From Aphrocallistes beatrix (lineage: Eukaryota > Porifera > Hexactinellida > Sceptrulophora > Aphrocallistidae), in the NCBI GenBank assembly GCA_963281255.1, contig OY725488.1, positions 8,715,524 through 8,779,523 on the forward strand: 64,000 nucleotides of DNA, written 5' to 3'. Below the pieces are notes generated by a model that was given only the letters and a program-made list of their open reading frames with translations, was not told the origin of the DNA and did no database searches. Both the position numbers and the translations under genes were made by a program. Positions 212 to 37,066 of the stretch are shown here, piece after piece. Numbering within the stretch: the stretch's first letter is position 1; the number at the start of each line of letters is the position of its first letter.

Positions 212-295
212 TCTTATTTAATTTTCTATATCTACAGAGTTAGCTGAGTCATTGTTAGCAATCTAATACCGCCTCAAACCAGAAAGAAGTTTGCC
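212..295 (+). promoter_or_regulatory. Conserved 5' flank of GH18 copy A
   Basis: About 85 bases between the repeat end and the ATG are almost unchanged upstream of every GH18 copy, including the broken one. It holds CTATATCTACAG, a possible 3' splice site for a 5'-UTR intron, and a CC directly before ATG. A promoter or leader role is inferred only from conservation and position. Confidence 0.35.
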
Positions 296-1363
296 ATGTC
301 TTGGACTAAAACAGCTAATGTTGCAATGCTCGGAGATGCTAACTGGGATGGTTTTATCAGGAAAGTTCCGAACTCTTCACCACAGCAAGCAAAACGAATT
401 TCCATCAAGAACCCGAAGATTAATTTCTTTTTTTTCTGTCGCGAATTTGTAGACCTTGGAGATAAGGGAGGGTTTGTTCCAGGCGATGCCGTTTTTTTTA
501 GTGGCCAACTTTCGTTTGGCGGTGCACCTCAATGCGATTCCTACCAAAAGAATCAAATGACGATTGTGTATATTAGTCCTGTGAGTTCTCAACAATTTCG
601 GGATATTGCTTCTTATACTTCTGCCGATGGAAGCCCAGCTGTTGATGTGGTTTGTATCTTTGGTGGCAATTATTGCACTAAAGAATACCCCTGCCTACGA
701 GCTGGGAATAACAATCCACCAACGGAAAAACCTTTGAATCCGAACATTCAGGAAGTTCTTGAAGATGGGTCTGTAAAGTTCCTACAAGATAAGGGCATAA
801 CGGTATTACTGACTATTTTGAACGGCCAATCATTGGTTGGTTGGTCGCAATTTACAAATGAAATTGATGCGACGGGTTTCGCTAACTATCTGAAAACAGA
901 CATGGTAGATAAATATGGATTGGATGGAATCGACATTGACGATGAATACAGCAATGGAGAACCTATCGCTACATCCCTGGTTATGGTAACGTCAATAATG
1001 AAGAAGATAATGCCAGATAGAATTATATCTAAAGCTCTGTTTAAGGATGGACAGTATTTTATTCCCTCTGTTGATGGCAAAAGATTATCTGACACATTAG
1101 ATTATGGTTGGGAAATGACTTACGGAGCTTCACCTAAGCATGTGCTTCCTCCCTATGTTAAGTATGGAATGAGTGAGACTGTAGTGTCCAAAGGATTTAA
1201 TTATAGGCGTCCATCCTATGACCCTATGGGAGATGTTCATTGGATAAAAAATAATGGCTATGGGGGAGTGATGATGTTTGACTTCCAAGATCACAACAGT
1301 GTTGAGTTTATGGGAAAGCTGGTAGATGCTTTATACGGTCCCGGGAACTGGAATTACAAATAA
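296..1363 (+). CDS. Endo H-like GH18 endo-beta-N-acetylglucosaminidase, copy A
   Basis: Predicted to cut the chitobiose core of N-linked glycans between the two GlcNAc residues. Residues 86-350 follow the bacterial Endo H layout: a YTSADGS...DVVCIFGGNY strand, then KGITVLLTILNG, then the GH18 signature LDGIDIDDE at residues 209-217 with D213, D215 and catalytic E217. Residues 1-85 form an unassigned N-terminal region rich in aromatic residues (FFFFC at 44-48). There is no signal peptide or membrane segment, so the product is cytosolic unless an upstream exon exists. The gene is intronless. Copy A is distinguished by FVD at 51-53, NYRRPSYDP at 302-310 and DFQDHN at 329-334. Animals normally use GH85 ENGase for this reaction, so acquisition from bacteria is inferred. 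Confidence 0.85.
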   Translation: MSWTKTANVAMLGDANWDGFIRKVPNSSPQQAKRISIKNPKINFFFFCREFVDLGDKGGFVPGDAVFFSGQLSFGGAPQCDSYQKNQMTIVYISPVSSQQFRDIASYTSADGSPAVDVVCIFGGNYCTKEYPCLRAGNNNPPTEKPLNPNIQEVLEDGSVKFLQDKGITVLLTILNGQSLVGWSQFTNEIDATGFANYLKTDMVDKYGLDGIDIDDEYSNGEPIATSLVMVTSIMKKIMPDRIISKALFKDGQYFIPSVDGKRLSDTLDYGWEMTYGASPKHVLPPYVKYGMSETVVSKGFNYRRPSYDPMGDVHWIKNNGYGGVMMFDFQDHNSVEFMGKLVDALYGPGNWNYK

Positions 1364-1747
1364 TTAACGTGAAAAGGCAGTTATAACAGTTGCATTTGTT
1401 GCTCTATTTTCTATTTTCTCAAGCGCTAGGATAGATATGTATAACACGCATGAAGTAAATATATTTGTTTGTTTACCATTAGTGTTACCTCTATGTTATT
1501 GTTGGTTTCTAATTATTGTTTACATCGGCTTTGAACTTGTTTATCGAACCTATTCTATACAAATAACATTTCAATGTACAGATTCGTTGTTAGGATTCAA
1601 ATATTGATATTCACACCAGATAACCGATAGAATGTGTCAACCAGGTTAATCGTCCCAATAACTTTACATTCAATATTCTAAATTTAGAATTCCTCAGTGT
1701 TAGAAGAGCTATAAATAGCTATTATTCTAATTCAGGTGTTGTTTCGC
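1364..1747. other. GH18 3' flank, duplicated
   Basis: About 330 bases after the stop codon are shared by the 3' flanks of copies A, B, D and E (copy C keeps only the first ~100). This is part of the segmental duplication. I see no coding potential. Confidence 0.6.
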
Positions 1748-2369
1748 GAGTTGACTGAATAAGACCGAATATTTGGTAGGAAAATAGATTTTTCCCAAAC
1801 TGGAATAAGACCGAAAAAAAATAGGACTGGAATAAGAGCGAATTATCAAAAATTGGAATAAGACCGAATTATCAAAACTGGAAAAGACCGAATTATCAAA
1901 ACTGGAATAAGACCGAATTGCCAAAACTGGAATAAGACCGAATTATCAAAACTGGAATAAGACCGAATTATCAAAACTGGAATAAGACCGAATTATCAAA
2001 ACTGGAATAAGACCGAATTATCAAAACTGGAATAAGACCGAATTGTCAAAACTAAAATTTATGTTTCAATAAATTATTTCAGTCACATTCAAAATCAATT
2101 TGTTCTATACAAAAATGCCTGAAATCACATTCAAAATCAATTTGTTCTGGACAAAAATGCCTGAAATCACATTCAAAATCAATTTGTTCTAAGCAAAAAT
2201 GCCTGAAATCAGTGCAGAATAATTTTTCGGTCTTATTCCATTCGGTCTTATTCCAGTCTTGATTATTCGGTCTTATTCCAGTCTTAATAATTCGGTCTTA
2301 TTCCAGTGCAGAATAATTTTTCGGTCTTATTCCAGTCCTAATTTATTTTCGGTCTTATTCATGTTTCCC
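1748..2369. repeat. Satellite-bearing insertion with 7-bp target-site duplication
   Basis: About 622 bases flanked by GTTTCGC on both sides (1741-1747 and 2370-2376). The paralogous D locus has one uninterrupted GTTTCGC near 16760. Inside are about ten head-to-tail copies of a ~25-bp unit containing GACCGAATTATCAAAACTGG (about 1757-2050), three copies of a ~43-bp unit (2082-2212), and inverted copies of the first unit (2226-2361). Both ends share TGAATAAGACCGA in inverted orientation. It looks like a non-autonomous DNA element built from satellite repeats. Confidence 0.7.
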
Positions 2370-2509
2370 GTTTCGCTGGTGATCATATATACAAGTAAAT
2401 TCATAGAATGTCTTCCAAAAATGGATGCACCATCCGTAGTAGATTTTCTTCAGTGAACTCTGAATCTTCTGTAATCTATTCTTAGAAAACTTGTAATTAA
2501 TATATATGT

Positions 2510-2840
2510 CATGGTGAAGCTTCAAATTTGGTGGAATTTTAAATTCCCCTAGTGGAAATTAAAATTGGAGTTTCCCCTAGTGGAACTTTAAATTTCCCTA
2601 GTGGGAACTCTAATTAGGGGCAATTTAAAGTTTCACCAGTGGGACACCCAATTGTAAACGGCTAAATTTAGTCATTTGATTTTAAATACCCCCAGGGCAA
2701 ATTATAATTAGAGTTCCCACTAGGGGAATTTAAATTTCCACTAGGGGAAACTCCAATTGAAATTCCCCCCAGTGGAAACTCCAATTTGAATTTCCCCTGG
2801 GGGAACTTCAAATTCCCCCAGATTTGAAGTTTCCCCATGA
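2510..2840. repeat. Palindromic low-complexity insertion
   Basis: Built of short variants of CCCCTAGTGGAAATT and their complements. It starts CATGGTGAAGCTTCAAATTTG and ends with the reverse complement of that start, so it can fold on itself. The D locus lacks it: there the sequence runs straight through the ATATATAT target (near 16965). It was gained by copy A after duplication, or lost cleanly from D. Confidence 0.65.
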
Positions 2841-3364
2841 CATATATATGGAATTACTAACATTAAATTCCTGAGCTGTGTAATTGTAACTTGTAAGGAT
2901 ATCTTACATTTTATCGTTCACACTAGTTCACTTGGATAATTTGTGTTAAATCTACATTCCATTGTGTATGTGCGTAGTTAGATAAATTTGTCACATATTG
3001 TAACTAGAGTCTTCAGATTTAATAACACCGTTGATATTGTTTGAAGTGTTTAGTTTGAGTGATTGAAGGACGTTGAATTCATTTTCTGATCAAAATTGGT
3101 AGTCAATATTCAATAAGTACAACCCCCCATTTCGGGGTGGAAGGTTGGGAATTTGTTTTTCCCTAACAAATTCACCTCGCGTATCGGGGCACTCCATCAT
3201 AGACTTTTTCTCTCGAGTAAACGTCTTTTACGCTTGAGCAGCTTGGTAGAGTTTTTCAAAAAAATTCCATAATATCATAATGTTGTGGCTGTCTCCTACA
3301 GGGTGAACATAAGTGCTGTCCTATTGAGTTAGGTCAAATAAATGGAATTTTAACTTCTAGTATG
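2841..3364. other. Duplicated non-coding flank
   Basis: Nearly identical to about 16970-17476. No ORF with recognisable content. It probably includes the 3' end of the Tc1-like element, but I could not place its terminal inverted repeat. Confidence 0.4.
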
Positions 3365-4444
3365 CTATGATTCACTTATCAATATAATCTCCATCTCTTT
3401 TATTACAAGTTTAACACGATTAGGCATATCTGCCACCAAGTTCGTTAAAATGTCTGGATCTATCTGACTCCACGCTTTTTTAACTATTTTCACAAGGGTA
3501 TCAATATCACTTGGTTGTCCCATCTCATCGACCTTGCCTTTGACGATTGCCCAAAGATTCTCGATAGGATTTAAGTCTGGGGAGTTGCCTGGTCATTCTT
3601 CCTTCCTCCAAAAGTGGGGGAAATTGTTTTCGCACCACTCCTGAGTCAATTTAGCCGTGTGGGCGGGGGCGCCATCTTGTTGAAAGATAATCTCGGACAT
3701 GTTTCTTGACATCGCAAGCTTTAGGATTGAGCCTTCTTGGCCCTACGTTTGAGAGCATCCTTACAAGTGTTTGCCAGAATAAAATCATGATAATAAGCTC
3801 CGGTTATAGTTTGGCCTTTGGGTACAATGTGCAAATCTGACAGAGCCTGGTGTGACATCATACCCCACACATGGACTTTAGGAGGAAATTTCACCTTGTA
3901 GCATGGAGGGACAACTTCAGGGTTTCGTACCCAAACATGATCATTTTGGCGATTAGGGATAGAGAATAACTCAAAAGGACACTCATCTGACCATAAAACC
4001 CTTTTGAAATCATCAGCAGTCCACTCTTGGCGCTCTCTGGCAAACTTGAGACGATTTTCCTTCTGACGATTCGTTAGTTTCGGCCTTTTCATCCGTTTGT
4101 AAGATTTAGTACCTAAAGAATTCGCCAAATATCTTCGAACAGTGGTGTGAGTGATCGGGTAGCCCATGCTTGTTATTCTTTTAGCCAATTTTCTGGTAGA
4201 TTGCCTTCTTTTAGTAACTGATTTAGCAATTACGATTTTTGCCACGGTGAAATTTCGGCGGTCGTCCGGACCGCGCTTTTGTCTCTAGCGATTTCCCAGA
4301 ATTGTGACTGCTGTACCAACGTCTAATCGAGCGTTCACTAACGTTAAGGGTCTGAGCAACTTCTTTTTGAGTCATACCTGCTACAACCATGCCGATTGCC
4401 TGAGGTCTGACCTCTAAACCGTGGTCATTGACATCCAAATGCAA
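3365..4444 (-). pseudogene. Tc1/mariner-like transposase pseudogene, copy 1
   Basis: Two reading frames read together as a DD34E-type transposase. The N-terminal HTH part (GMTQKEVAQTLNVSERSIRRW) lies at 4223-4444, followed after a frameshift by a second HTH region and the first catalytic Asp in WSDECPFEL (3721-4245). The C-terminal part lies in another frame with QDGAPAHT and SPDLNPIENLW, interrupted by an in-frame TGA just before PGNSPDLN. It has no ATG start in frame. It is not functional. Confidence 0.85.
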
Positions 4445-4772
4445 AAAATAAGCGCCAGAAATAAAGACAATATATGAATATCAAAAATTAAGGTTGGCCT
4501 TTCCTCTGGGTATTTTGTTTTTTATCAAAAAATTGCCGAAAGTCATTTTTAATCATTTTTAGATCCCTAAAGGGGTTTTAAACATTAATTTCGATTTTTA
4601 GAATTTCAATGCTTCTATTTCGCCACTTGGAGCCACTTGTACCACCTAGTATCGCCGAAAAAAGGACACATTTTTGAAGCCAAATGTCTCATAACTTCTT
4701 TGAGCCATGTCAGATCATCATTTTAATGCTAAATTCGTGCTCAACACTAAATTTCCAGCAATTTGATACATG
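4445..4772. other. Transposon flank and outer inverted repeat arm
   Basis: Bases about 4681-4770 (TCTCATAACTTCTTTGAGCC) recur inverted at about 5380-5460. The MITE at 4773-5253 has therefore inserted inside an older inverted repeat. Confidence 0.5.
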
Positions 4773-5253
4773 TACACTAAGCGGACAAAAGTATTTCAAC
4801 ACTTGATTCTTTCCCATACAAATAATACCAAAATGGGTCTATTCATGAAGAGGTTACTTCGAAACGATATGGGATAAGGTAATCGGATTCCAGATTCGAA
4901 TAATACACATTCGAATTAGTCACAGGTTAATTTTTCTAATTAATCATTCATTCCTAACTTTTTGTAATTATCAATCAGTGCCACCTTATGCCACATAAAC
5001 CCATTTTGACCACTATACATGATGGCAATGAATTACCTATGGTGGCTCAGGCTGATAATATTGTTCATTGAGTTTAGTAATTTATTAGTTATGTTCAACT
5101 ATGACTAATTCGAATGTGTAGATTTCGAATCTGAAATCAGATTTTTAGTATCTCTTTGAATTTGAACGTATTGCCCTTCATGAAAAAATCCGATTTAGTA
5201 TTATTTGTATGCAAAAGAATCAAGTGTTGAAACACTTTTGTCCGCTTAGTGTA
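4773..5253. mobile_element. Tc1/mariner-type MITE, copy 1
   Basis: About 480 bases beginning TACACTAAGCGGACAAAAGT and ending with its reverse complement. Terminal inverted repeats are about 65 bases and the target is TA. The interior has a second, nested inverted repeat (ATTCGAATTAGTCA / TGACTAATTCGAAT). It has no coding capacity. Confidence 0.75.
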
Positions 5254-5882
5254 TATATGGACACATTTGGAGAATCTTTTGGCTGCGGGTTCCTAGCAAC
5301 GACCAGGAATGTGAAAAAATTCCTGGCCGTTGCTAGGCACGGGCAACCAAAAAATTCTCCAAATATGGTCAATATATATATCAAATATCTGGAAATTCAA
5401 TGCTGGACACGAATTCAGATTCAATTGATAATCTGACATGGTTCAAAGAAGTTATTGTCTTGGGATTCCGGCGGATACTATTGAATGTAGTTATTTTTGG
5501 GTGGCCAGTCATCAATGACCAGTTTTTCACACTTTTGATGGTCAAAATTCACTGAACACTGAGGAATTCTAAATTTAGAATATTGAATCTTATTGGGACG
5601 ATTAAATTAACATTCCATTGCTTATCTGGTATGAATATGAATATTTGAATCCTAACAACGAATCTGTATATTGAAATGTTATTTGTATAGACTAGGTTCG
5701 ATAAACAAGTTCAAAACCAATGCAAACAATAATTAGAAACCAACAATAACATAGAGGTAACACTAATGGTAAACAAACAAATATATTTACTTCATGCGTG
5801 TTATACATATATATCCTAGCGCTTGAGAAAATAAAAAAATAGAACAACAAATGCAATTGTTATAACTGCCTTTTCAAGTTAA
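5254..5882. other. Outer inverted repeat arm plus GH18 B 3' flank
   Basis: The inverted arm described at 4445-4772, then the conserved GH18 3' flank in reverse orientation. Contains the self-complementary GGCCAGTCATCAATGACC. No gene seen. Confidence 0.5.
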
Positions 5883-6950
5883 TTAGTTGGAATTCCAGCT
5901 CCCGGGACCGTATAAAGCATCTACCAGTTTTCCCATCAATTCAACATTTGACTTGTTATCGAAGGCAAACACCATCACACCCCCATAGCCATTATCTTTT
6001 ATCCACTGAACATCCTCATTGAGTGTTAGCGATAGGCCCCCAGACCAAAATCCTTTGGACACTACAGTCTCACTCATTCCATACTTAACATAGGGAGGAA
6101 GCACATACTGAGGTGGAGCTCCGTAAGTCATTTCCCAACCATAATCTAACGTGTCAGATAATCTTTTGCCATCAACAGAGGGAATAAAATACTGTCCATC
6201 GTTAAACAGAGCTTTCGATATAATTCTATCTGGCATTATCTTCTTCATTATTGACGTTACCATAACCAGGGATGTAGCGATAGCTTTTCCATTGCTGTAT
6301 TCATCGTCAATGTCGATACCATCCAATCCATATTTATCTACCATGTCTGTTTTCAGATAGTTAACGAAACCCGTCGCATCAATTTCATTTGTAAATTGTG
6401 ACCAACCAACCAATGAATGGCCGTTCAAAATAGTCAGTAATACAGTTATGCCCTTATCTTGTAGGAATTTTACAGACCCATCTTCAAGAACTTGCTGAAT
6501 GTTCGGATTCAAAGGTTTGTCCGTTGGTGGATTGTTATTCCCAGCTCGTAGGCAGGGGTATTCCTTAGTGCAATAATTGCCACCAAAGATACAAACCACA
6601 TCAACAGCTGGGCTTCCATCGGCAGAAGTATAAGAAGCAATATCCCGAAATTGTTGAGAACTCACAGGACTAATATACACAATCGTCATCTGATTCTTTT
6701 GGTAGGAATCACATTGAGGTGCGCCGCTAAACCAAGGTTTGCCACTAAAAAAAACGGCATCGCCTGGAACAAACCCTCCCTTATCTCCAAGGAACGTATA
6801 TTCGCGACAGAAAAAAAAGAAAGTGATCTTCGGGTTTTTGATGGAAATTCGTTTTGCTTGCTGTGGTGAAGAGTTCGGAACTTTCCTGATAAAACCATCC
6901 CAGTTAGCACCTCCGAGCATTGCAACATTAGCTGTTTTAGTCCAAGACAT
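5883..6950 (-). CDS. Endo H-like GH18 endoglycosidase, copy B
   Basis: Same 355-residue protein as copy A, with the intact LDGIDIDDE signature and the same start context. It carries the second sequence type: YTF at residues 51-53, WSGGLSLTLN from residue 302 and VFAFDNKSN near 327. It also has G14 in place of D14 and SGKPWFSGAP in the N-terminal region. It lies tail-to-tail with copy A across the Tc1/MITE block. Its coding end and first 3' bases (AACTTGAAAAGG) match copy D rather than its positional counterpart E. Confidence 0.85.
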   Translation of the reverse strand: MSWTKTANVAMLGGANWDGFIRKVPNSSPQQAKRISIKNPKITFFFFCREYTFLGDKGGFVPGDAVFFSGKPWFSGAPQCDSYQKNQMTIVYISPVSSQQFRDIASYTSADGSPAVDVVCIFGGNYCTKEYPCLRAGNNNPPTDKPLNPNIQQVLEDGSVKFLQDKGITVLLTILNGHSLVGWSQFTNEIDATGFVNYLKTDMVDKYGLDGIDIDDEYSNGKAIATSLVMVTSIMKKIMPDRIISKALFNDGQYFIPSVDGKRLSDTLDYGWEMTYGAPPQYVLPPYVKYGMSETVVSKGFWSGGLSLTLNEDVQWIKDNGYGGVMVFAFDNKSNVELMGKLVDALYGPGSWNSN

Positions 6951-7048
6951 GGCAAACTTCTTTCTGGTCTGAGGCGGTATTAGATTGCTAACAATGACTC
7001 AGCTAACTCTGTAGATATAGAAAATTAAATAAGAGTAACAAGTAATAA

Positions 7049-7152
7049 CCCTCCACAGACGGGATGGAAGTGTGCTTCCAAATCTCATAAGTCACCTTAA
7101 GTCACCTTTAATAAACAAATTAATAAACTAATACTATAGGAAGCACACTAAA
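7049..7152. mobile_element. Short MITE in the copy B promoter region
   Basis: Begins CCCTCCACAGACGGGATGG and includes GAAGTGTGCTTCC, with the inverse GGAAGCACACT near its right end. It separates the B leader from the dispersed repeat end and is absent from the other GH18 promoters. The same family occurs at about 32490-32540 and 33015-33050. Confidence 0.5.
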
Positions 7153-7220
7153 AATGTCAGTCGACAGACTGAGTGCAGCTCTGTTAAGTGACTCGTAGGA
7201 CATTTGCATAATATACACCC

Positions 7221-8284
7221 ATAGCCTACTCTAATAATGCCTCACAGTAGACTGAAAATCATGGACTAGGGATGAAGTAATAGCCGAATGGATTGATACA
7301 CGATTAGCCTGAAATCGTTAACCATGCAGAATAGCCATTAAGAATGTATTACCAGCATATATAAACATGATATCAAAGTACATATATCCGTTGGAAAAAT
7401 TTCGATTAGTCATCATATAATTGCACAACAGGTCATTCTAAGGACAATTTTAGCGATTTTCTAAGCTGTTTTAACCTTATTTCTAAATGGTATTAAGGTG
7501 TGATTTTTGTGCAGAACCAAGCTTAGTACGAGTTGATTTGAAAATTTAGAATTTTTCAATGGAATGTTGTTACATTCCTGCGTTGCTATGGTAAAGCATT
7601 TTGGTCAGTTTGGGCCACTTCGTGCAAACTGTAGTAGCTAGATCTTCAAATTCGATCGTGTTTGATAGGCAATGGCCTACTTCCTATTAGGTGATAATAC
7701 AACTTGAACTTCTAAATTCAACGAGTTTTGAGTTATGGGTTGATTTAAGAATGTGACCAAAACACTAAATTGTCTCATAACTCTATAGTCTGTGAATTTA
7801 GAAGTTTAAATTGTATTATTACCTAATAGGAAGTAGCTAATTGCCTATCAAATACGGTCAGATTTGAAGACCTAGTTCTTACAGTTTGCAGGATATGGCC
7901 CAAACTGACCAAAATGCTTTACCATAGCAACGCAGGAATGTAACAACATTCCATTGAAAAATTCTAAAATTTTCAAATCAACTCGTACTAATCTTGGTTC
8001 TACACAAAAATCACACCTTAATACCATTTAGAAATAGGGTTAAAACAGCTTAGAAAATTGCCAAAATCGTGCTTAAAATGACCTGTTGCGCAATGATATG
8101 ATAACGAATCGAAATTTTGACAACGGATATATGTTATTTGATGCCATGTTTATATATGCTGGTAATACATTCTTAATGCCTATCCTACATGGTTGACGAC
8201 TTTAGGCTAATCGTGTATTAATCCATTCGGCTATTACCGCATCCTTGGTTATTTTACTGTGAGGCATTATTAGAGTAGGCTATG
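7221..8284. mobile_element. Foldback element of about 1.06 kb
   Basis: Nearly perfect palindrome centred near 7750. The left end is ATAGCCTACTCTAATAATGC and the right end is its reverse complement. ATACACCC flanks it on both sides (7213-7220 and 8285-8292), an 8-bp target duplication of the hAT type. It interrupts the dispersed repeat upstream of copy B. No ORF of note. A diverged relative lies around 31800-32200. Confidence 0.75.
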
Positions 8285-10158
8285 ATACACCCTTAATTGG
8301 GTTTTGAACTTTTTTTTCATTTCAGCCAATCAAATTACAAGTTTAGAGTGTGTGTCTAACTTGTATTATCTACATTAAGTTAAGTGTGAACTCACAATTA
8401 TGAGTAATTAGAATGTGTAGATTATGAATTTGAAATACAAAGTATTTCTTACAGTTTGAGTACGTATTCCTTCATAAATAGACCCACTTTAATACTATTT
8501 GTATGGAAGCTTTCGTGGTGGTCGAATACTTTTGTCCGGGCACGTAGATTCTAAATACGATATCGAAATCTACACCCTAAAACCCTATATTAGGGGCTTA
8601 CAGCGCCCCCCGGACCCACAGTTGGATACTGTCCCCCCCGCCAAGATATCCTGGTAATACTCATTCCCATCCCATTCCCACAGGATTTATGTGGGAATAC
8701 CCACAGAAACCCACAGAAACCCACATGCGGGAATATTCATAGGCTTAAAGTAATTCCTATTCCCATCCCATATGGGAATGCCCACAGATTCCCATTCCCA
8801 CGGTAACCCTGCCACCTTCTTAAGGTAAAGTATGACGAAATAGAGATAGGAAATGCGAAAATATTTATACGAAAATTAAAAAATTATATCGCCTTATTTT
8901 TAAAAAAGTGAAATATCAAATATTGAAAATATCTGAAAAATTCGGGAATTGATCGTTCTTGTCCAGTTTTTAGATAATACTGTATTTTTAAAATCGTGAT
9001 ATTGATAATATTATTGGTCACTTTTTCCGATACATCGTACCGTTATCTGTGATCTTTTCTTATATCAAAATTAGTAAACTTTTAATAGTATCAAGATGTC
9101 CATATACTGAATAAATATTTTATGAAAATCTTATATATTCTGATATTTGCTAGAATTATTTTAATTCTAACAAATAATATTTTTGAGGTGCATGCATTAG
9201 TTCGAATTCTGCAGTAGTCGTTAGTTTGGATAGATTTCAATGTACTGCCACTAGTTCGAATATATAACCAACGTATTATTTGTTGTTAACACCGAAGTTA
9301 ACAACGTACTTTTGAGGTACGAATTTCATCTAATACAATTGTTACTCCAATTTCTCATATACTCAGCAGAATGCTTCTATTCCCTCTGTTCTTATAAATA
9401 GCTCTCCATAATGCCACTCAACTATCCTCTTCGTTCAGAAATGCCTTTTTCATCTTCAATTTTTACTATTCTCTAAAGAAAATGCTTCTTTTCCCTCAGT
9501 TCTTATAAATATCTCCTCCAAATGCCACTCAATGACAGTACAACATTGAAAATCCATTCGAACTAATATCATCCTTCAATTTACGTTAATTCCAAATTCG
9601 ATTCGAACAAATGATTGCATTATCAAATTCGATTCGAACTAACGACTACATTGCAATTCGAACTAATGCTGCGTCCCCAATATTTTTATTTATTCAATTT
9701 ATAAGTACTTATGTTAATAATTACAAGCGCTTCGCTTGCTTGAGCTGCGCGGCTTGCGGACACTGCTTGTCCGCAGAGTCGCCCTGTGGGCGCCTGGAGT
9801 TTCTCAATCTATTCTATTTCGGGATTTTTTTACTTTATATAAATATTGTAAACAAAATTAACGAATAATTTCTCACATGGATCCGAAAATATAATATTCG
9901 AAATCTACACCACTAAAAACCCCATGTCAACCGTTGGAAACCAGCCTCTAGCCTATTTTTGAGAGTTGTTTACTTTATATATCTATTGTTAACAAAAGTA
10001 AACAAATAATTTATCATATTGAACTGGAAATATTTTTATATTAAATAGAATCGTGTGAATCGCATTATAAAAGTCTGATAATTGATTGGTTCTCACATGA
10101 ACCAATCAATTTCTGTCACAAATAGTCTTTTTGATTGTATGCATTAGTCACTACTGAT
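8285..10158. other. Repeat-rich region without a gene
   Basis: Contains the rest of the GH18 upstream arm with its TTTTGTCCGGG terminus and the first bases of the 243-bp spacer (about 8530-8595), a fragment of the TACAGCGCCCCC repeat (8597-8660), a low-complexity stretch of CCCATTCCCA variants (8650-8815), a GC-rich hairpin repeat (9722-9801), and a repeat shared with 32690-32800 (10025-10150). Confidence 0.5.
9722..9801. repeat. GC-rich hairpin repeat
   Basis: Full-looking copy: AAGCGCTTCGCTTGCTTG, then CTGCGCGGCTTGCGGACA, then a GGACACTGCTTGTCC hairpin, then CGCCCTGTGGGCG. Three successive hairpins can form. Confidence 0.6.
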
Positions 10159-13105: not shown

Positions 13106-14173
13106 TTATTTGTAATTCCAGCTCCCGGGACCGTATAGAGCATCTACCAGCTTTCCCATAAACTCAACACTGTGGGGATCTTCGCAGTTAAACATCATCA
13201 CACCCCCAAAGCCATTATTTTTTATCCACTGAACATCTCCCATAGGATCATAGGATGGAAGCTTGTAATAAAATCCTTTGGACACTACAGTCTTACTCAT
13301 TCCATACTTAACATAGGGAGGAAGCACATCCTTAGGTGAAGCTTCGTAAGTCATTTCCCAACCATAATCTAATGTGTCAGATAATCTTTTGCCATCAACA
13401 GAGGGAATAAAATACTGTCCATCCTTAAACAGAGCTTTCGATATAATTCTATCTGGCATTATCTTCTTCATTATTGACGTTACCATAACCAGGGATGTAG
13501 CGATAGGTTCTCCATTGCTGTATTCATCGTCAATGTCGATACCATCCAATCCATATTTATCTACCATGTCTGTTTTCAGATAGTTAACGAAACCCGTCGC
13601 ATCAATTTCATTTGTAAATTGTGACCAACCAACCAATGAATGGCCGTTCAAAATAGTCAGTAATACCGTTATGCCCTTATCTTGTAGGAATTTTACAGAC
13701 CCATCTTCAAGAACTTCCTGAATGTTCGGATTCAAAGGTTTTTCCGTTGGTGGATTGTTATTCTCAGCTCGTAGGCAGGGGTATTCTTTACTGCAATAAT
13801 TACCACCAAAGATACAAACCACATCAACAGCTGGGCTTCCGTCGGCAGAAGTATAAGAAGCAATATCCCGAAATTGTTGAGAACTCACAGGACTAATATA
13901 CACAATCGTCATCTGATTCTTTTGGTAGGAATCGCATTGAGGTGCACCGCCAAACGAAGGTTTGCCACGAAAGAAAACGGCATCTCCTGGAACAAACTCT
14001 CCCTTATCTCCAAGCTTAGAATGTTCACGACAGAAAAAAAAGAAAGTAATCTTCGGGTTCTTGATGGAAATTCGTTTTGCTTGCTGTGGTGAAGAGTTCG
14101 GAACATTCTTGATAAAACCATCCCAGTTAGCATCTCCGAGCATTGCAACATTAGCTGTTTTAGTCCAAGACAT
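13106..14173 (-). CDS. Endo H-like GH18 endoglycosidase, copy C
   Basis: Intact 355-residue copy with LDGIDIDDE. It represents the third sequence type: HSK at residues 51-53, YYKLPSYDP from 302 and FNCEDPHS near 328. It has KNVPN in place of RKVPN near residue 23. Its 3' flank is truncated about 100 bases after the stop, unlike A, B, D and E. It is head-to-head with copy D. Confidence 0.85.
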   Translation of the reverse strand: MSWTKTANVAMLGDANWDGFIKNVPNSSPQQAKRISIKNPKITFFFFCREHSKLGDKGEFVPGDAVFFRGKPSFGGAPQCDSYQKNQMTIVYISPVSSQQFRDIASYTSADGSPAVDVVCIFGGNYCSKEYPCLRAENNNPPTEKPLNPNIQEVLEDGSVKFLQDKGITVLLTILNGHSLVGWSQFTNEIDATGFVNYLKTDMVDKYGLDGIDIDDEYSNGEPIATSLVMVTSIMKKIMPDRIISKALFKDGQYFIPSVDGKRLSDTLDYGWEMTYEASPKDVLPPYVKYGMSKTVVSKGFYYKLPSYDPMGDVQWIKNNGFGGVMMFNCEDPHSVEFMGKLVDALYGPGSWNYK

Positions 14174-15241
14174 GGCAAACTTCTTTCTGGTTTGAGGCGG
14201 TATTAGATTGCTAACAATGACTCAGCTAACTCTGTAGATATAGAAAATTAAATAAGAGTAAAAAGTAAATATGTCAGTCGACAGACTGAGTGCAGCTCTG
14301 TTAAGTGACTCGTAGGACATTTGCATAATATACATCTTTAATTGGGTTTTGAACATTTTTTCATTTCAGCCAATCAAATTACAAGTTTAGAGTGTGAGTT
14401 TCTAACTTATCTGCATGATGTTAAGTGTAAACTCACAATTATGAGTAATTAAAATGTGTAGATTACGAATTTGAAATCAAAATAGAGTATTTCTTACAGT
14501 TTAAGTACATATTTCTCTATAAATAGACCCACTTTAATACTATTTGTATAGTGGTTTTCATAGTGGTTGAATACTTTTGTCCGGGTACTGGCTTCACTCT
14601 CACAATAGAAATCATTAAACGGCACTACAACAAACTGTCATGTTATGAATATTTCAAAGCAATAACTTATATGGGTGTTATCATAGTGTATAGCAATGGA
14701 AAAGGTTGTCTATATTTTCACACCTTCGAATTTTGACGAATTTTGAAAAATATACTAGAGACTAGCTTCCAACGGTTAATATAGGGTTTTACGGTGTAGA
14801 TTTCGATATCGTATTTAGAATATACGTGCCCGGACAAAAGTATTCAACCACTATGAAAACCACTATACAAATAGTATTAAAGTGGGTCTATTTATAGAGA
14901 AATATGTACTTAAACTGTAAGAAATACTCTATTTTGATTTCAAATTCGTAATCTACACATTTTAATTACTCATAATTGTGAGTTTACACTTAACATCATG
15001 CAGATAAGTTAGAGACTCACACTCTAAACTTGTAATTTGATTGGCTGAAATGAAAAAATGTTCAAAACCCAATTAAAGATGTATATTATGCAAATGTCCT
15101 ACGAGTCACTTAACAGAGCTGCACTCAGTCTGTCGACTGACATTTTACTTTTTACTTTTATTTAATTTTCTATATCTACACAGAGTTAGCTGAGTCATTG
15201 TTAGCAATCTAATACCGCCTCAGACCAGAAAGAAGTTTGCC
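14174..15241. repeat. Head-to-head intergenic inverted repeat with 243-bp spacer (C/D)
   Basis: The upstream regions of C and D are mirror images. From the centre outward both read CCCGGACAAAAGTATTCAAC, a Tc1-like terminus, and run to the GH18 leaders. The non-repeated centre is 14586-14828. Together with the genes, each arm is about 1.5 kb. The same arms occur between E and F, but there the centre is inverted. Confidence 0.75.
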
Positions 15242-16309
15242 ATGTCTTGGACTAAAACAGCTAATGTTGCAATGCTCGGAGATGCTAACTGGGATGGTTT
15301 TATCAGGAAAGTTCCGAACTCTTCACCACAGCAAGCAAAACGAATTTCCATCAAGAACCCGAAGATCAATTTCTTTTTTTTCTGTCGCGAATATACGTTC
15401 CTTGGAGATAAGGGAGGGTTTATTCCAGGCGATGCCGTTTTCTTTAGTGGCAAACCTTCGTTTGGCGGCGCACCTCAATGCGATTCCTACCAAAAGAATC
15501 AGATGACGATTGTGTATATTAGTCCTGTGAGTTCTCAACAATTTCGGGATATTGCTTCTTATACTTCTGCCGATGGAAGCCCAGCTGTTGATGTGGTTTG
15601 TATCTTTGGTGGTAATTATTGCAGTAAAGAATACCCCTGCCTACGAGCTGAGAATAACAATCCACCAACGGACAAACCTTTGAATCCGAACATTCAGCAA
15701 GTTCTTGAAGATGGGTCTGTAAAATTCCCACAAGATAAGGGCATAACAGTATTACTGACTATTTTGAACGGCCAGTCATTGGTTGGTTGGTCACAATTTA
15801 CAAATGAAAGTGATGCGACGGATTTCGTTAACTATCTGAAAACAGACATGGTAGATAAATATGGATTGGATGGTATCGACATTGACGATGAATACAGCGA
15901 TGGAAAACCTATCGCTACATCCCTGGTTATGGTAACGTCAATAATGAAGAAGATAATGCCAGATAGAATTATATCGAAAGCTCTGTTTAACGATGGACAG
16001 TATTTTATTCCCTCTGTTGATGGCAAAAGATTATCTGACACATTAGATTATGGTTGGGAAATGACTTACGGAGCTCCACCTCAGTATGTGCTTCCTCCCT
16101 ATGTTAAGTATGGAATGAGTGAGACTGTAGTGTCCAAAGGATTTTGGTCTGGGGGCCTATCGCTAGCACTCAATGGGGATGTTCAGTGGATAAAAGATAA
16201 TGGCTATGGGGGTGTGATGGTGTTTGCCTTCGATAACAAGTCAAATGTTGAATTGATGGGAAAACTGGTAGATGCTTTATACGGTCCCGGGAGCTGGAAT
16301 TCCAACTAA
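15242..16309 (+). CDS. Endo H-like GH18 endoglycosidase, copy D
   Basis: Intact 355-residue copy of type two, like B: YTF at 51-53, WSGGLSLALN from 302, VFAFDNKSN near 327. The catalytic signature is intact. Private changes include FPQDKG (Pro for Leu) and a TNESDATDF segment. It heads the second tail-to-tail pair (D/E) and shares a segmental duplication with A/B, where its positional partner is A. Confidence 0.85.
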   Translation: MSWTKTANVAMLGDANWDGFIRKVPNSSPQQAKRISIKNPKINFFFFCREYTFLGDKGGFIPGDAVFFSGKPSFGGAPQCDSYQKNQMTIVYISPVSSQQFRDIASYTSADGSPAVDVVCIFGGNYCSKEYPCLRAENNNPPTDKPLNPNIQQVLEDGSVKFPQDKGITVLLTILNGQSLVGWSQFTNESDATDFVNYLKTDMVDKYGLDGIDIDDEYSDGKPIATSLVMVTSIMKKIMPDRIISKALFNDGQYFIPSVDGKRLSDTLDYGWEMTYGAPPQYVLPPYVKYGMSETVVSKGFWSGGLSLALNGDVQWIKDNGYGGVMVFAFDNKSNVELMGKLVDALYGPGSWNSN

Positions 16310-17476
16310 TTAACTTGAAAAGGCAGTTATAACAGTTGCATTTGTTGCTCTATTTTCTATTTTCTCAAGCGCTAGGATAGATATGTATAACACGCATGAA
16401 GTAAATATATTTGTTTGTTTACCATTAGTGTTACCTCTATGTTATTGTTGATTATTAATTAATTATTGTTTACATTGGTTTTGAACTTGTTTATCGAACC
16501 TAGTCTATACAAATAACATTTCAATGTACAGATTCGTTGTTAGGATTCAAATATTCATATTCACACCAGATAACCAATGGAATGTCAACCGGGTTAATCG
16601 TCCCAGTAACATTCAATATTTTAAATTTAGAATTTTCAGTGTTACAAGAACTATAAATAACTATTATTCGAATTCAGGGGCCTTATTCACTAAGAAGTTA
16701 AGCACTAAGTTCGAACTTAAGTACGAACTTAAAATGTTAGTGAACACGGCCCCAGATGTTGTTTCGCTGGTGATCATACGTATATACAAGCAAATTCATA
16801 GAATTAAATGAAATTATAATTGGAAATTTGTTGTTTATGAATCAATCGATGGAATGAAAATGTCTTCCAAAAAATGGATGCGCCATCCGTAGTAGATTAT
16901 TTTTTCAGTGAACTCTGAATCTTCTTCTGTAATCTATTCTTAGAAAACTTGTAATTAATATATATATGGAATTACTAACATTAAATTCCTGAGCTGTGTA
17001 ATTGTAACTTGTAAGGATATCTTACATTTTATCGTTCACACTAGTTCACTTGGATAATTTGTGTTAAATCTACATTCCATTGTGTATGTGCGTAGTTAGA
17101 TAAATTTGTCACATATTGTAACTAGAGTCTTCAGATTTAATAACACCGTTGATATTGTTTGAAGTGTTTAGTTTGAGTGATTGAAGGACGTTGAATTCAT
17201 TTTCTGATCAAAATTGGTAGTCAATATTCAATAAGTACAACCCCCCATTTCGGGGTGGAAGGTTGGGAATTTGTTTTTCCATAACAAATTCACCTCGCGT
17301 ATCGGGGCACTCCATCATAGACTTTTTCTCTCGAGTAAACGCCTTTTACGCTTGAGCAGCTTGGTAGAGTTTTTCAAAAAAATTCCATAATATCATGTGG
17401 CTGTCTCCTACAGGGTGAACATAAGTGCTGTCCTATTGAGTTAGGTCAAATAAATGGAATTTTAACTTCTAGTATG
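16310..17476. other. GH18 3' flank, duplicated
   Basis: Counterpart of 1364-3364 but lacking both large insertions seen there. No gene seen apart from the small MITE listed separately. Confidence 0.5.
16677..16753. mobile_element. 77-bp hairpin MITE in the D flank
   Basis: Starts GGGGCCTTATTCACTAA and ends TTAGTGAACACGGCCCC, with a fully self-complementary middle (AAGTTCGAACTTAAGT). Absent at the matching place in A (after 1736), so it inserted after the duplication or was lost in A. Confidence 0.65.
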
Positions 17477-18557
17477 CTATGATTCACTTATCAATATAAT
17501 CTCCATCTCTTTATATTGCAAGTTTAACACGATTAGGCATATCTGCCACCAAGTTCGTTAAAATGTCTGGATCTATCTGACTCCACGCTTTTTTAACTAT
17601 TTTCACAAGGGTATCAATATCACTTGGTTGTCCCATCTCATCGACCTTGCCTTTGACGATTGCCCAAAGATTCTCGATAGGATTTAAGTCTGGGGAGTTG
17701 CCTGGTCATTCTTCCTTCCTCCAAAAGTGGGGGAAATTGTTTTCGCACCACTCCTGAGTCAATTTAGCCGTGTGGGCGGGGGCGCCATCTTGTTGAAAGA
17801 TAATCTCGGACATGTTTCTTGACATCGCAAGCTTTAGGATTGAGCCTTCTTGGCCCTACGTTTGAGAGCATCCTTACAAGTGTTTGCCAGAATAAAATCA
17901 TGATAATAAGCTCCGGTTATAGTTTGGCCTTTGGGTACAATGTGCAAATCTGACAGAGCCTGGTGTGACATCATACCCCACACATGGACTTTAGGAGGAA
18001 ATTTCACCTTGTAGCATGGAGGGACAACTTCAGGGTTTCGTACCCAAACATGATCATTTTGGCGATTAGGGATAGAGAATAACTCAAAAGGACACTCATC
18101 TGACCATAAAACCCTTTTGAAATCATCAGCAGTCCACTCTTGGCGCTCTCTGGCAAACTTGAGACGATTTTCCTTCTGACGATTCGTTAGTTTCGGCCTT
18201 TTCATCCGTTTGTAAGATTTAGTACCTAAAGAATTCGCCAAATATCTTCGAACAGTGGTGTGAGTGATCGGGTAGCCCATGCTTGTTATTCTTTTAGCCA
18301 ATTTTCTGGTAGATTGCCTTCTTTTAGTAACTGATTTAGCAATTACGATTTTTGCCACGGTGAAATTTCGGCGGTCGTCCGGACCGCGCTTTTGTCTCTA
18401 GCGATTTCCCAGAATTGTGACTGCTGTACCAACGTCTAATCGAGCGTTCACTAACGTTAAGGGTCTGAGCAACTTCTTTTTGAGTCATACCTGCTACAAC
18501 CATGCCGATTGCCTGAGGTCTGACCTCTAAACCGTGGTCATTGACATCCAAATGCAA
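17477..18557 (-). pseudogene. Tc1/mariner-like transposase pseudogene, copy 2
   Basis: Duplicate of 3365-4444 with the same frameshift, the same in-frame TGA before PGNSPDLN, and an additional 1-bp insertion near 17511 that breaks the C-terminus. The shared lesions show the element was dead before the block duplicated. Confidence 0.85.
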
Positions 18558-18884
18558 AAAATAAGCGCCAGAAATAAAGACAATATATGAATATCAAAAA
18601 TTAAGGTTGGCCTTTCCTCTGGGTATTTTGTTTTTTATCAAAAAATTGCCGAAAGTCATTTTTAATCATTTTTAGATCCCTAAAGGGGTTTAAACATTAA
18701 TTTCGATTTTTAGAATTTCAATGCTTCTATTTCGCCACTTAGAGCCACTTGTACCACCTAGTATCGCCGAAAAAAGGACACATTTTTGAAGCCAAATGTC
18801 TCATAACTTCTTTGAGCCATGTCAGATCATCATTTTAATGCTAAATTCGTGCTCAACACTAAATTTCCAGCAATTTGATACATG

Positions 18885-19366
18885 TACACTAAGCGGACAA
18901 AAGTATTTCAACACTTGATTCTTTCCCATACAAATAATACCAAAATGGGTCTATTCATGAAGAGGGTTACTTCGAAACGATATGGGATAAGGTAATCGGA
19001 TTCCAGATTCGAATAATACACATTCGAATTAGTCACAGGTTAATTTTTCTAATTAATCATTCATTCCTAACTTTTTGTAATTATCAATCAGTGCCACCTT
19101 ATGCCACATAAACCCATTTTGACCACTATACATGATGGCAATGAATTACCTATGGTGGCTCAGGCTGATAATATTGTTCATTGAGTTTAGTAATTTATTC
19201 GTTATGTTCAACTATGACTAATTCGAATGTGTAGATTTCGAATCTGAAATCAGATTTTTAGTATCTCTTTGAATTTGAACGTATTGCCCTTCATGAAAAA
19301 ATCCGATTTAGTATTATTTGTATGCAAAAGAATCAAGTGTTGAAACACTTTTGTCCGCTTAGTGTA
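18885..19366. mobile_element. Tc1/mariner-type MITE, copy 2
   Basis: Duplicate of the MITE at 4773-5253, at the same relative site and with the same TIRs. Confidence 0.75.
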
Positions 19367-20002
19367 TATATGGACACATTTGGAGAATCTTTTGGCTGCG
19401 GGTTCCTAGCAACGACCAGAAATGTGAAAAAATTCCTGGCCGTTGCTAGGCACGGGCAACCAAAAAATTCTCCAAATATGGTCAATATATATATCAAATA
19501 TCTGGAAATTCAATGCTGGACACGAATTCAGATTCAATTGATAATCTGACATGGTTCAAAGAAGTTATTGTCTTGGGATTCCGGCGGATACTATTGAATG
19601 TAGTTATTTTTGGGTGGCCAGTCATCAATGACCAGTTTTTCACACTTTTGATGGTCAAAATTCACTGAACACTGAGGAATTCTAATTTTAGAATATTGAA
19701 TGTTATTGGGACGATTAACTCGGTTAATTAACATTCCATTGCTTATCTGGTGTGAATATGAATATTTGAATCCTAACAACGAATCTGTACATTGAAATGT
19801 TACTTGTATAGAATAGGTTCGATAAACAAGTTCAAAACCAATGCAAACAATAATTAGAAACCAATAATAACATAGAGATAACACTAATGGTAAACAAACA
19901 AATATATTTACTTCATGCGTGATGTACATATATATCCTAGCGCTTGAGAAAATAGAAAATAGAGCAACAAATGCAACTGTTATAACTGCCTTTTCACGTT
20001 AA
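19367..20002. other. Duplicated flank downstream of GH18 E
   Basis: Counterpart of 5254-5882. No gene seen. Confidence 0.5.
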
Positions 20003-21070
20003 TTAGTTGTAATTCCAGTTCCCGGGACCGTATAAAGCATCTACCAGCTTTCCCATAAACTCAACACTGTGGGGATCTTCGCAGTTAAACATCATCACTC
20101 CCCCAAAGCCATTTTTTTTAATCCACTGAACATCTCCCATAGGATCATAGGATGGAAGCTTGTAATAAAATCCTTTGGACACTACACTCTTACTCATTCC
20201 ATACTTAACATAGGGAGGAAGCACATGCTTAGGTGAAGCTTCGTAAGTCATTTCCCAACCATAATCTAACGTGTCAGATAATCTTTTGCCATCAACAGAG
20301 GGAATAAAATACTGTCCATCCTTAAACAGAGCTTTAGATATAATTTTATCTGGCATTATCCTCTTCATTATTGACGTTACCATAACCAGGGATGTAGCGA
20401 TAGCTTTTCCATTGCTGTATTCATCGTCAATGTCGATACCATCCAATCCATATTTATCTACCATGTCTGTTTTCAGATAGTTAACGAAATCCGTTGCATC
20501 AATTTCATTTGTAAATTGTGACCAACCAACCAATGAATGGCCGTTCAAAATAGTCAGTAATACCGTTATGCCCTTATCTTGTAGGAATTTTACAGACCCA
20601 TCTTCAAGAACTTCCTGAATGTTCGGATTTAAAGGTTTGTCCGTTGGTGGATTGTTATTCTCAGCTCGTAGGCAGGGGTATTCTTTAGTGCAATAATTAC
20701 CACCAAAGATACAAACCACATCAACAGCTGGGCTTCCATCGGCAGAAGTATAAGAAGCAATATCCCGAAATTGTTGAGAACTCACAGGACTAATATACAC
20801 AATCGTCATCTGATTCTTTTGGTAGGAATCGCATTGAGGTGCACTGCCAAACGAAGGTTTGCCACGAAAGAAAACGGCATCTCCTGGATCAAACTCTCCC
20901 TTATCTCCAAGCTTAGAATGTTCACGACAGAAAAAAAAGAAATTAATCTTCGGGTTCTTGATGGAAATTCGTTTTGCTTGCTGTGGTGAAGAGTTCGGAA
21001 CTTTCCTGATAAAACCATCCCAGTTAGCATCTCCGAGCATTGCAACATTAGCTGTTTTAGTCCAAGACAT
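20003..21070 (-). CDS. Endo H-like GH18 endoglycosidase, copy E
   Basis: Intact 355-residue copy of type three, like C: HSK at 51-53, YYKLPSYDP from 302, FNCEDPHS near 328. Catalytic LDGIDIDDE intact. Private changes include FDPGDAVFF (Asp for Val) and MKRIMPDK. It is the positional counterpart of B in the duplicated block, yet its sequence type is that of C. It is head-to-head with the broken copy F. Confidence 0.85.
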   Translation of the reverse strand: MSWTKTANVAMLGDANWDGFIRKVPNSSPQQAKRISIKNPKINFFFFCREHSKLGDKGEFDPGDAVFFRGKPSFGSAPQCDSYQKNQMTIVYISPVSSQQFRDIASYTSADGSPAVDVVCIFGGNYCTKEYPCLRAENNNPPTDKPLNPNIQEVLEDGSVKFLQDKGITVLLTILNGHSLVGWSQFTNEIDATDFVNYLKTDMVDKYGLDGIDIDDEYSNGKAIATSLVMVTSIMKRIMPDKIISKALFKDGQYFIPSVDGKRLSDTLDYGWEMTYEASPKHVLPPYVKYGMSKSVVSKGFYYKLPSYDPMGDVQWIKKNGFGGVMMFNCEDPHSVEFMGKLVDALYGPGNWNYN

Positions 21071-22135
21071 GGCAAACTTCTTTCTGGTCTGAGGCGGTAT
21101 TAGATTGCTAACAATGACTCAGCTAACTCTGTAGATATAGAAAGTTAAATAAGAGTAAAAAGTAAAATGTCAGTCGACAGACTGAGTGCAGCTCTGTTAA
21201 GTGACTCGTAGGACATTTGCATAATATACATCTTTAATTGGGTTTTGAACATTTTTTCATTTCAGCCAATCAAATTACAAGTTTAGAGTGTGAGTCTCTA
21301 ACTTATCTGCATGATGTTAAGTGTAAACTCACAATTATGAGTAATTAAAATGTGTAGATTACGAATTTGAAATCAAAATAGAGTATTTCTTACAGTTTAA
21401 GTACATATTTCTCTATAAATAGACCCACTTTAATACTATTTGTATAGTGGTTTTCATAGTGGTTGAATACTTTTGTCCGGGCACGTATATTCTAAATACG
21501 ATATCGAAATCTACACCGTAAAACCCTATATTAACCGTTGGAAGCTAGTCTCTAGTATATTTTTCAAAATTCGTCAAAATTCGAAGGTGTGAAAATATAG
21601 ACAACCTTTTCCATTGCTATACACTATGATAACACCCATATAAGTTATTGCTTTGAAATATTCATAACATGACAGTTTGTTGTAGTGCCGTTTAATGATT
21701 TCTATTGTGAGAGTGAAGCCAGTACCCGGACAAAAGTATTCAACCACTATGAAAACCACTATACAAATAGTATTAAAGTGGGTCTATTTATAGAGAAATA
21801 TGTACTTAAACTGTAAGAAATACTCTATTTTGATTTCAAATTCGTAATCTACACATTTTAATTACTCATAATTGTGAGTTTACACTTAACATCATGCAGA
21901 TAAGTTAGAGACTCACACTCTAAACTTGTAATTTGATTGGCTGAAATGAAAAAAAGTTGAAAACTAAATTAAAGATGTATATTATGCAAATGTCCTACGA
22001 GTCACTTAACAGAGCTGCACTCAGTCTGTCGACTGACATTTTACTTTTTACTTTTATTTAATTTTCTATATCTACAGAGTTAGCTGAGTCATTGTTAGCA
22101 ATCTAATACCGCCTCAAACCAGAAAGAAGTTTGCC
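21071..22135. repeat. Head-to-head intergenic inverted repeat with inverted spacer (E/F)
   Basis: Same arms as 14174-15241. The 243-bp centre (21482-21724) is the reverse complement of the C/D centre (14586-14828), while the outer context is in the same order. Confidence 0.8.
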
Positions 22136-22615
22136 ATGTCTTGGACTAAAACAGCTAATGTTGCAATGCTCGGAGATGCTAACTGGGATGGTTTTATCAG
22201 GAAAGTTCCGAACTCTTCACCACAGCAAGCAAAACGAATTTCCATCAAGAACCCGAAGATTAATTTCTTTTTTTTCTGTCGTGAACATTCTAAGCTTGGA
22301 GATAAGGGAGAGTTTGATCCAGGAGATGCCGTTTTCTTTCGTGGCAAACCTTCGTTTGGCGGCGCACCTCAATGCGATTCCTACCAAAATAATCAGATGA
22401 CGATTGTGTATATTAGTCCTGTGAGTTCTCAACAATTTCGGGATATTGCTTCTTATACTTCTGCCGATGGAAGCCCAGCTGTTGATGTGGTTTGTATCTT
22501 TGGTGGTAATTATTGCACTAAAGATTTCTGTCCCGAAATTTTATCCCGATTAACCAACCAGAATTCCTTAAAATATGTCACAAATAAGTTCCCAATTAAC
22601 CGGTTTTCCAATTAA
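22136..22615 (+). pseudogene. Truncated GH18 copy F
   Basis: Matches copy E through about residue 129 (GGNYCTK), then switches at about 22523 to unrelated sequence giving a short tail and stop. It is cut before the catalytic motif, so it cannot be an active enzyme. The fused sequence is a repeat also present near 12281. The leader is intact, so a 159-residue N-terminal fragment could still be expressed. Confidence 0.8.
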
Positions 22616-37000: not shown

Positions 37001-37066
37001 ATAACTTTACGGATGATGGTAATGTGTATTATACAAACAAATAACTATGTATTTGAATTCTACTGC

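Follow-up and report, generated by a model that had tools for sequence, protein, structure and literature searches.

An Amplified Family of Endo H-Type GH18 Genes, Probably of Bacterial Origin, in the Nuclear Genome of the Glass Sponge Aphrocallistes beatrix

A 64,000-nucleotide stretch of the genome of Aphrocallistes beatrix (GenBank assembly GCA_963281255.1, contig OY725488.1, positions 8,715,524 to 8,779,523; hereafter "the window") carries, between its positions 296 and 22615, six copies of a gene of glycoside hydrolase family 18 (GH18), of which five are intact open reading frames (ORFs) of 355 amino acids (aa) and one is truncated (Table 1). Searching the whole assembly (100.5 Mb in 28 contigs; C1 is the contig that carries the window) with copy c1 returned seven places, namely these six and a far copy (C1:9623511-9624569) that lies 0.9 Mb off on the same 12.5-Mb contig, is 79% identical and has a frame open for 355 residues to its stop. 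A first-pass annotation of the window had described five intact copies and a broken one, a count that the ORF list and the genome search bear out, although the intact seventh copy had been overlooked. It had also recognized a GH18 barrel correctly but passed over an N-terminal domain (residues 1-88); the LDGIDIDDE signature that it named is found in 5/5 intact copies. Each full frame is uninterrupted, which makes introns unnecessary, and no signal peptide is visible by eye, again as first described. The lack of introns says little about where the genes came from, because single-exon genes are numerous in Aphrocallistes, whose genome is described as 80 Mb in size (PMC10282587); for Oopsacas, 1.59 introns per gene are given (PMC10280926).

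Table 1. Positions of the gene copies and associated features in the window.
Feature	Position	Strand	Remarks
c1, 355 aa, PAN-like + Endo H-type GH18	296..1363	+	intact ORF; loops 7/8 derived
c1 N-terminal domain, residues 1-88	296..559	+	PAN/Apple-like fold predicted, modelled on c2
c1 Endo H-type barrel, residues 86-355	551..1360	+	D215/E217 at 938-946; fold modelled on c2
c2, 355 aa	5883..6950	-	intact; loops 7/8 of far-copy type; source of structure model
c3, 355 aa	13106..14173	-	intact ORF; loops 7/8 derived
c4, 355 aa	15242..16309	+	intact frame; L163P
c5, 355 aa	20003..21070	-	intact ORF; loops 7/8 derived
c6, 159-aa ORF	22136..22615	+	truncated; family-like up to residue 131 (~22528), then unrelated sequence
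Repeated block	2842..7045 = 16960-21165		97.2% over 4217 alignment columns
Acceptor-like stretch of c1	205..237	+	pyrimidine-rich, ends CTACAG, 58 nt before ATG
Acceptor-like stretch of c2	7009..7042	-	same type as before c1

In window order the copies are oriented +, -, -, +, -, + and form long inverted and direct repeats. The repeated block of Table 1 consists of a spacer with a Tc-type transposase fragment together with the c2/c5 unit, and its recurrence indicates a segmental duplication of the array.

Residues 86-355 are, in the structure model of c2, an Endo H-type GH18 barrel that keeps the catalytic D-x-E motif. Each of the five full copies in the window scores against both the EndoS-barrel and the GH18 model of Pfam (E = 1e-5 to 4e-8); the curated cut-off is reached by four of them, with c3 slightly under the cut-offs of both models, and neither model matches the truncated c6. 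The NCBIfam Endo H model NF045482 matches the two copies tested at E = 4e-30 (105 bits, residues 86-348) and 5e-30, and a phmmer search of the Protein Data Bank (PDB) aligns residues 84/89-279 with solved chains of Endo H at E-values of 2e-20 to 6e-19. The Endo H counterparts of D215 and E217 are D130 and E132; D215 and E217 are invariant in 39 sequences and are kept in all six full-length copies, the far copy included. The predicted barrel fold is nearer to Endo H and Endo F1 than to chitinases. Membership in an old animal GH18 clade, which the first-pass annotation had named as an outcome that would undo its proposal, is not what sequence and fold suggest: in both respects the copies resemble Endo H much more closely than they do any solved animal chitinase among the matches listed. 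In structural alignments the sponge protein is 26-28% identical to Streptomyces Endo H (GH18; PDB 1edt/1c8y) and 20-22% identical to BT1285. Endo H, Endo F1 and BT1285 are secreted or surface enzymes of bacteria that consist of a single catalytic domain in this length range, whereas the sponge protein has 88 additional N-terminal residues, no signal peptide (by eye) and a gene in an animal nucleus. Endo H-like chemistry of the copies is likely.

The N-terminal residues 1-88 are predicted to make up a separate domain with a PAN/Apple-like fold, for which the best Foldseek match to the predicted structure has an E-value of 0.028; the only weak Pfam match in the domain is to PF11623, at 0.2. C48 and C80 are invariant in 14 aligned members, and residue 27 is Cys in nine aligned bacterial rows and Ser (S27) in the sponge rows; a cytosolic protein need not form the helix-to-strand disulfides of PAN domains. 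The sponge genome has a single PAN_1 match, on another contig and unrelated to the copies, and the N-terminal domain of the copies alone found no match in plasmids. ChtPE of hemipterans (PMC9933517) resembles the sponge copies in being an animal GH18 protein with a PAN/Apple domain for which horizontal transfer has been suggested. It is set apart by its description, in the part of that source used here, as a chitinase-type protein with a signal peptide and plant/fungal-like chitin-binding domains, and it is not described there as being of the Endo H type.

The relatives of the whole protein that we found are bacterial. A scan of bacterial and archaeal genome contigs (594 candidates) gave 323 related stretches, of which the best 80 were kept, and nine of these 80 match from query residue 1. 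Within that set, the seven nearest two-domain proteins are 50-58% identical to the sponge protein: an Acidobacteriaceae metagenome-assembled genome (MAG) at 58% and Owenweeksia and Fluviicola MAGs at 54% come first, followed by three Flavobacterium isolates (50-51%) and a Proteobacteria MAG (50%). Remoter full-length matches there are from an Alphaproteobacteria MAG (36%) and Dyella (34%), and a Thermoanaerobaculia MAG (G007) has a further two-domain copy (L100). The nine loci are densely coding, with ORFs of at least 90 aa covering 0.76-0.90 of the bases in eight and 0.99 in L022. Like the sponge protein, the bacterial ones (L012-L017, L020-L022, L097, L098, L100) have the same two domains, an M-x-W-x start and no signal peptide (by eye); they occur in at most one copy per genome in the 11 genomes examined, whereas the sponge gene is multicopy. 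The distribution of the two-domain protein in bacteria is rare and patchy: at E <= 1e-40, and counting the starting genomes, the family is present in 1/396 Acidobacteriota, 5/299 Flavobacterium and 1/399 genomes of Fluviicola's order. We know of no name for this family of PAN-like/Endo H-type two-domain proteins. Among the listed titles and abstract starts of open-access papers we found no report of the sponge gene. Scans of viral contigs returned no relative of the sponge protein, and tblastn returned five plasmid and three phage records, none of them close and none with more than 75% of the query covered; viral spread of the gene was rejected on these results. As a separate observation, plasmid pmk2 of Klebsiella sp. 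PL-2018, a bacterium from Ceratitis capitata, carries two Endo H-like GH18 genes without visible signal peptide (L006), one of them fused to hemopexin-like repeats (by eye) and both near IS5 transposases.

To place the sponge copies, trees of bacterial and sponge rows were built, the larger one from 36 of the 80 loci plus the six full-length copies; animal GH18 proteins, including this genome's own, were left out. The sponge rows form one clade (support 100/100) in an 11-row clade (97/97) with Acidobacteriota, Bacteroidota and Myxococcota, and this in turn lies inside a 17-row clade (100/100) made up of two-domain proteins plus two relatives that have the catalytic domain only. L019, which falls in the clade with the sponge rows, has a long branch. 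A 25-row tree with three added relatives gives the same nesting (99/100). The single sponge clade inside a bacterial one supports the horizontal acquisition suggested in the first-pass annotation, and the local amplification suggested there agrees with the clustering of the copies and the duplication of the array. The same genome also has a cluster of other GH18 (PF00704) matches at C16:3944063-3951375, which was not aligned with the copies.

Horizontal gain from bacteria followed by amplification in the glass sponge is well supported, and we consider it unlikely that the gene came by way of another eukaryote (a protist, fungus or alga), or that it has long been a eukaryotic gene and other lineages have lost it, with the bacteria as sisters or even later recipients. 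Such a route gains from the very patchy bacterial distribution given above, from the search set, which comprised bacteria and archaea, and from the occurrence in fungi too of GH18 endo-beta-N-acetylglucosaminidases (ENGases) for high-mannose glycans (PMC8374693). It has to contend with several bacterial phyla in the two-domain clade, with the bacterial origin of the Endo H relatives around that clade in the tree and with the nested position of the sponge rows.

The surroundings of the copies are those of an animal chromosome. To the left of the window lies a gene for an F-box/cyclin-D1-binding protein, with hAT-like and mariner-like ORFs (by eye); to the right of the array follow genes for a choline kinase, EAP30/VPS22, a DOCK protein with DHR-2, and C2H2, CRAL-TRIO/MSP and P450 proteins, and Pfam identifies a Tc-type transposase fragment within the array's surroundings. 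The far copy is flanked by NHL-repeat-like ORFs and a transposase-like ORF (by eye), and repeats of the window's first 2 kb are dispersed over many other contigs (40 of 842 candidates scored). Two sites 0.9 Mb apart, animal flanking genes and dispersed repeats together indicate that the copies lie in the sponge chromosome; the flanking genes and the transposase fragment also confirm the earlier description of copies amid animal DNA with transposons. A join of bacterial or symbiont DNA to sponge DNA in the left part of the window, which the first-pass annotation had also named as undoing its proposal and to which the bacterial nearest relatives might point, is very improbable: the contig is an animal one of 12.5 Mb, both sites on it have animal-type flanks, repeats beside the window copies recur on other contigs, and the copies are diverged duplicates, with up to 0.24 synonymous substitutions per site (dS). 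We therefore rejected contamination and misassembly. Composition does not decide the origin, since the GC content at third codon positions (GC3) of the copies (0.35-0.38) is at the low edge of the host range (0.36-0.84 in 14 host ORFs). Codon usage correlates with that of 12 host ORFs at 0.32-0.47 and for the Flavobacterium gene L015 at 0.46, and so does not separate the sponge copies. Hexactinellid mitochondrial DNA (mtDNA) encodes atp9 and reads TGA as Trp, AGR as Ser and ATA as Ile. The mitochondrial contig of the assembly (C28, 18.0 kb) has an ORF at 193-456 that reads as atp9, and in COX1 TGA stands for Trp, AGA is found at expected Ser positions and ATA fits Ile; these residues and atp9 were judged by eye, and AGG is too rare for a test. 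Its tRNA set includes Lys-TTT and Ser-TCT. The mitochondrial atp9 and AGA = Ser point to a hexactinellid host, a class that the first-pass annotation had not recognized, and hexactinellids are described as using a distinct mitochondrial code (PMC10695373).

We propose that a glass-sponge lineage received into its nuclear genome, by horizontal transfer, a bacterial enzyme made of a PAN/Apple-like domain and an Endo H-type GH18 barrel, and that amplification would have given rise to the copy at C1:9.62 Mb and to the inverted and direct array of five intact copies and a truncated one. To this reading as a whole, Endo H-like activity included, we assign a probability of about 0.7. Several results weigh against it. 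An approximately unbiased (AU) test rejects a grouping of the bacterial rows without the sponge only modestly (p = 0.036), and inner branches are open (12/39 in the larger tree, 5/22 in the 25-row tree), so that the adjacent bacterial phylum is not settled; another eukaryote could be direct donor or co-holder, the search set being bacterial and archaeal. The 105 bits scored with NF045482 are far under that model's equivalog cut-off of 300 bits, which makes the protein a relative of Endo H and not an orthologue by this model. The N-terminal domain has no Foldseek match at E <= 0.001, the assignment to PAN being by fold only, and Pfam PAN models match 0/14 aligned members at E <= 10 in a search whose filters remove most matches above 0.1. 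Finally, H218 stands next to the catalytic E217 in the far copy, and residue 163, replaced in c4 (Table 1), is nearly invariant among 39 relatives; some copies may thus be impaired.

The copies have diverged unevenly along their length. Between the far copy and the window copies dS is 0.14-0.24, and among the window copies it is 0.03-0.12. Of the 61 amino-acid positions at which the five window copies differ from one another, 33 lie within residues 49-79 and 300-340, a span of 72 out of 355 residues (hypergeometric p = 5e-11, for segments chosen after looking). In the c2 model the first of these segments forms a loop of the PAN-like domain, and the second comprises the stretches after barrel strands 7 and 8 (297-301 and 324-327), which are tentatively equated by strand order with loops 7 and 8 of EndoBT-3987, in which mutations are described as lowering activity on a hybrid glycan (PMC8374693). 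In the loops (here 49-79 and 276-340) dS is 0.26 for c2-c3 and 0.18 for c1-c2, compared to 0.06 and 0.07 elsewhere, though on few silent changes. This excess suggests either that conversion has acted on the remainder of the gene or that a diverged segment was imported. Two observations weigh against this: the excess is missing from the pairs c2-c4 and c3-c5, and it recurs when the far copy is compared with each of the five window copies (0.22-0.57 vs 0.10-0.17), so that the loops may be higher in silent divergence generally and not as a mark of conversion. The ratio of nonsynonymous to synonymous substitution (dN/dS) in the loops is 0.85-1.16 in the six pairs that compare the two loop types. 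With values near 1 and not clearly above it, we do not claim positive selection; relaxed and diversifying selection are indistinguishable here. For the rest of the gene, 13/15 pairs have a dN/dS of 0.28-0.57, indicating constraint, yet it is 0.80 for c3-c4 and 0.75 for c4-far. It is improbable, in light of this constraint and of six full-length frames that all keep D215 and E217, that the majority of the copies have no function and are carried along in a repeat-rich array, or that they have become lectin-like binders without catalysis, even though the truncated copy, the substitutions in c4 and the far copy and the loop ratios would suit such a fate.

Assuming that the copies are active, the protein would most likely work from the cytosol, or be freed by lysis or unconventional secretion, because no signal peptide is visible in bacteria or sponge. 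The N-terminal domain would probably bind a glycan or a protein, and the barrel would most likely cut the N-acetylglucosamine (GlcNAc)-GlcNAc core of high-mannose (or hybrid) N-glycans as Endo H does, with E217 as the acid and D215 orienting the N-acetyl group. The GH85 cytosolic ENGase of animals is expected to cut the same bond but belongs to a different family; it is encoded separately in the sponge genome (C6:4102764-4105190), and we therefore rejected replacement of a missing GH85 ENGase by the copies. An insect "ENGase" named in a chitinase paper resembled an animal Endo H at first sight but was set aside, CG5613-type ENGase being GH85. The PAW domain of NGLY1 has no match in the sponge genome or in the controls, which is evidence in neither direction.

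A hint to the target comes from a genomic partner in the Flavobacterium relatives. In 5/5 Flavobacterium loci a gene like those of the Microcystis viridis lectin (MVL) family, containing M-A-T-F-K-V-N-(I/V)-P-A-G-P-I-W, lies directly upstream on the same strand, and the one lectin tested matches Pfam MVL (PF12151) at E = 1.4e-16. MVL lectins bind the high-mannose N-glycan core, the stretch cut by Endo H, and the lectin upstream hints at high-mannose N-glycan as the target of the enzyme. Among ORFs of at least 80-90 aa, no MVL-like gene was seen by eye in the other bacterial loci, and MVL has no match at E <= 0.001 in the sponge genome, in a search whose control set was likewise without a positive. 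Cystatin-like neighbours of L014 and L017 were under the Pfam cut-offs and not used as evidence. Cytoplasm-stored lectins of fungi are described as acting against nematodes (PMC10512399), and by analogy an anti-grazer role of the bacterial protein is worth testing.

For the sponge, the first-pass annotation had put forward defence, symbiont handling or digestion as possible roles. A stored glycan-cutting protein might be used against ingested or invading eukaryotes or predators. Such a use is hinted at, and no more than that, by the diversified loops and by the lectin gene beside the bacterial relatives, and on slender grounds we slightly favour intracellular defence over digestion or turnover. 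That the copies digest food glycoproteins, or turn over the sponge's own cytosolic free glycans, is nevertheless possible, at less than even odds. Sponges feed by phagocytosis, and an activity of the Endo H type would be apt for releasing nutrients. The genome also has the enzyme usual in the cytosol, GH85 ENGase, which makes glycan turnover a plausible shared compartment. But a lysosomal or extracellular digestive route is hard to reconcile with a protein without signal peptide (by eye), housekeeping turnover does not call for diversified loops 7 and 8, and the bacterial relatives also have no visible signal peptide and, in Flavobacterium, sit beside an MVL-like lectin. The defensive reading can be extended to a domesticated bacterial protein, paired with an MVL lectin and maybe an anti-grazer in Flavobacterium, that became a multicopy intracellular defence in which conversion would unify the copies while the PAN loop and loops 7 and 8 diversify into a repertoire of N-glycan specificities; in this full form we hold it to be doubtful.

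All seven copies have, about 52-58 nt 5' of the ATG, a run rich in pyrimidines whose last letters are CTACAG (c4 and the far copy read CTACACAG), and upstream of it conservation with the far copy falls off. The stretch is, at a fair guess from sequence, a candidate 3' splice acceptor, in cis or in trans; in Aphrocallistes a trans-spliced leader is reported on only 4% of long reads (PMC10282587). An octamer-like ATGCAAAT (144-151 in c1, and counterparts) precedes the ATG in 6/7 copies, not in the far copy, at a distance of 152 nt in c1 and a larger one in c2 owing to an insertion.

Other features of the window are recorded here in their own right. A 25-bp repeat unit (AATAAGACCGAA core) at 1741-2360 occurs in both orientations and also on many contigs, and its pairs resemble a dispersed element whose arms are inverted. 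A 489-aa ORF at 25999-27468 (-) combines an unnamed N-terminal part of ~290 aa with a C-terminal LOG/SLOG domain (lysine decarboxylase-like, PF18306/PF03641), and is possibly another unusual gene adjoining the array. At 35933-38173 lie two choline-kinase-like ORFs (by eye) in opposite orientation; their N-terminal halves are near-identical and their C-terminal halves differ, which looks like a gene-conversion chimera. The DOCK gene is a single 1674-aa ORF at 40167-45191 (-) with a GC content of ~0.6 and a GC3 of 0.84; the window's left third has a GC content of ~0.36. No Rfam family reaches its gathering score in the window, and the window has no tRNA.

If the proposed reading is true, an animal nucleus harbours a family of Endo H-type enzymes that cut N-glycans, and both their barrel and the unnamed PAN-like domain joined to it came from bacteria. 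The family would offer a tractable case of a transferred bacterial enzyme that multiplies in an animal and diversifies its substrate-reading loops there. The finding also points to a bacterial family with a lectin partner in Flavobacterium, where a role against grazers or in glycan use is testable, and the copies themselves could be new deglycosylation tools.

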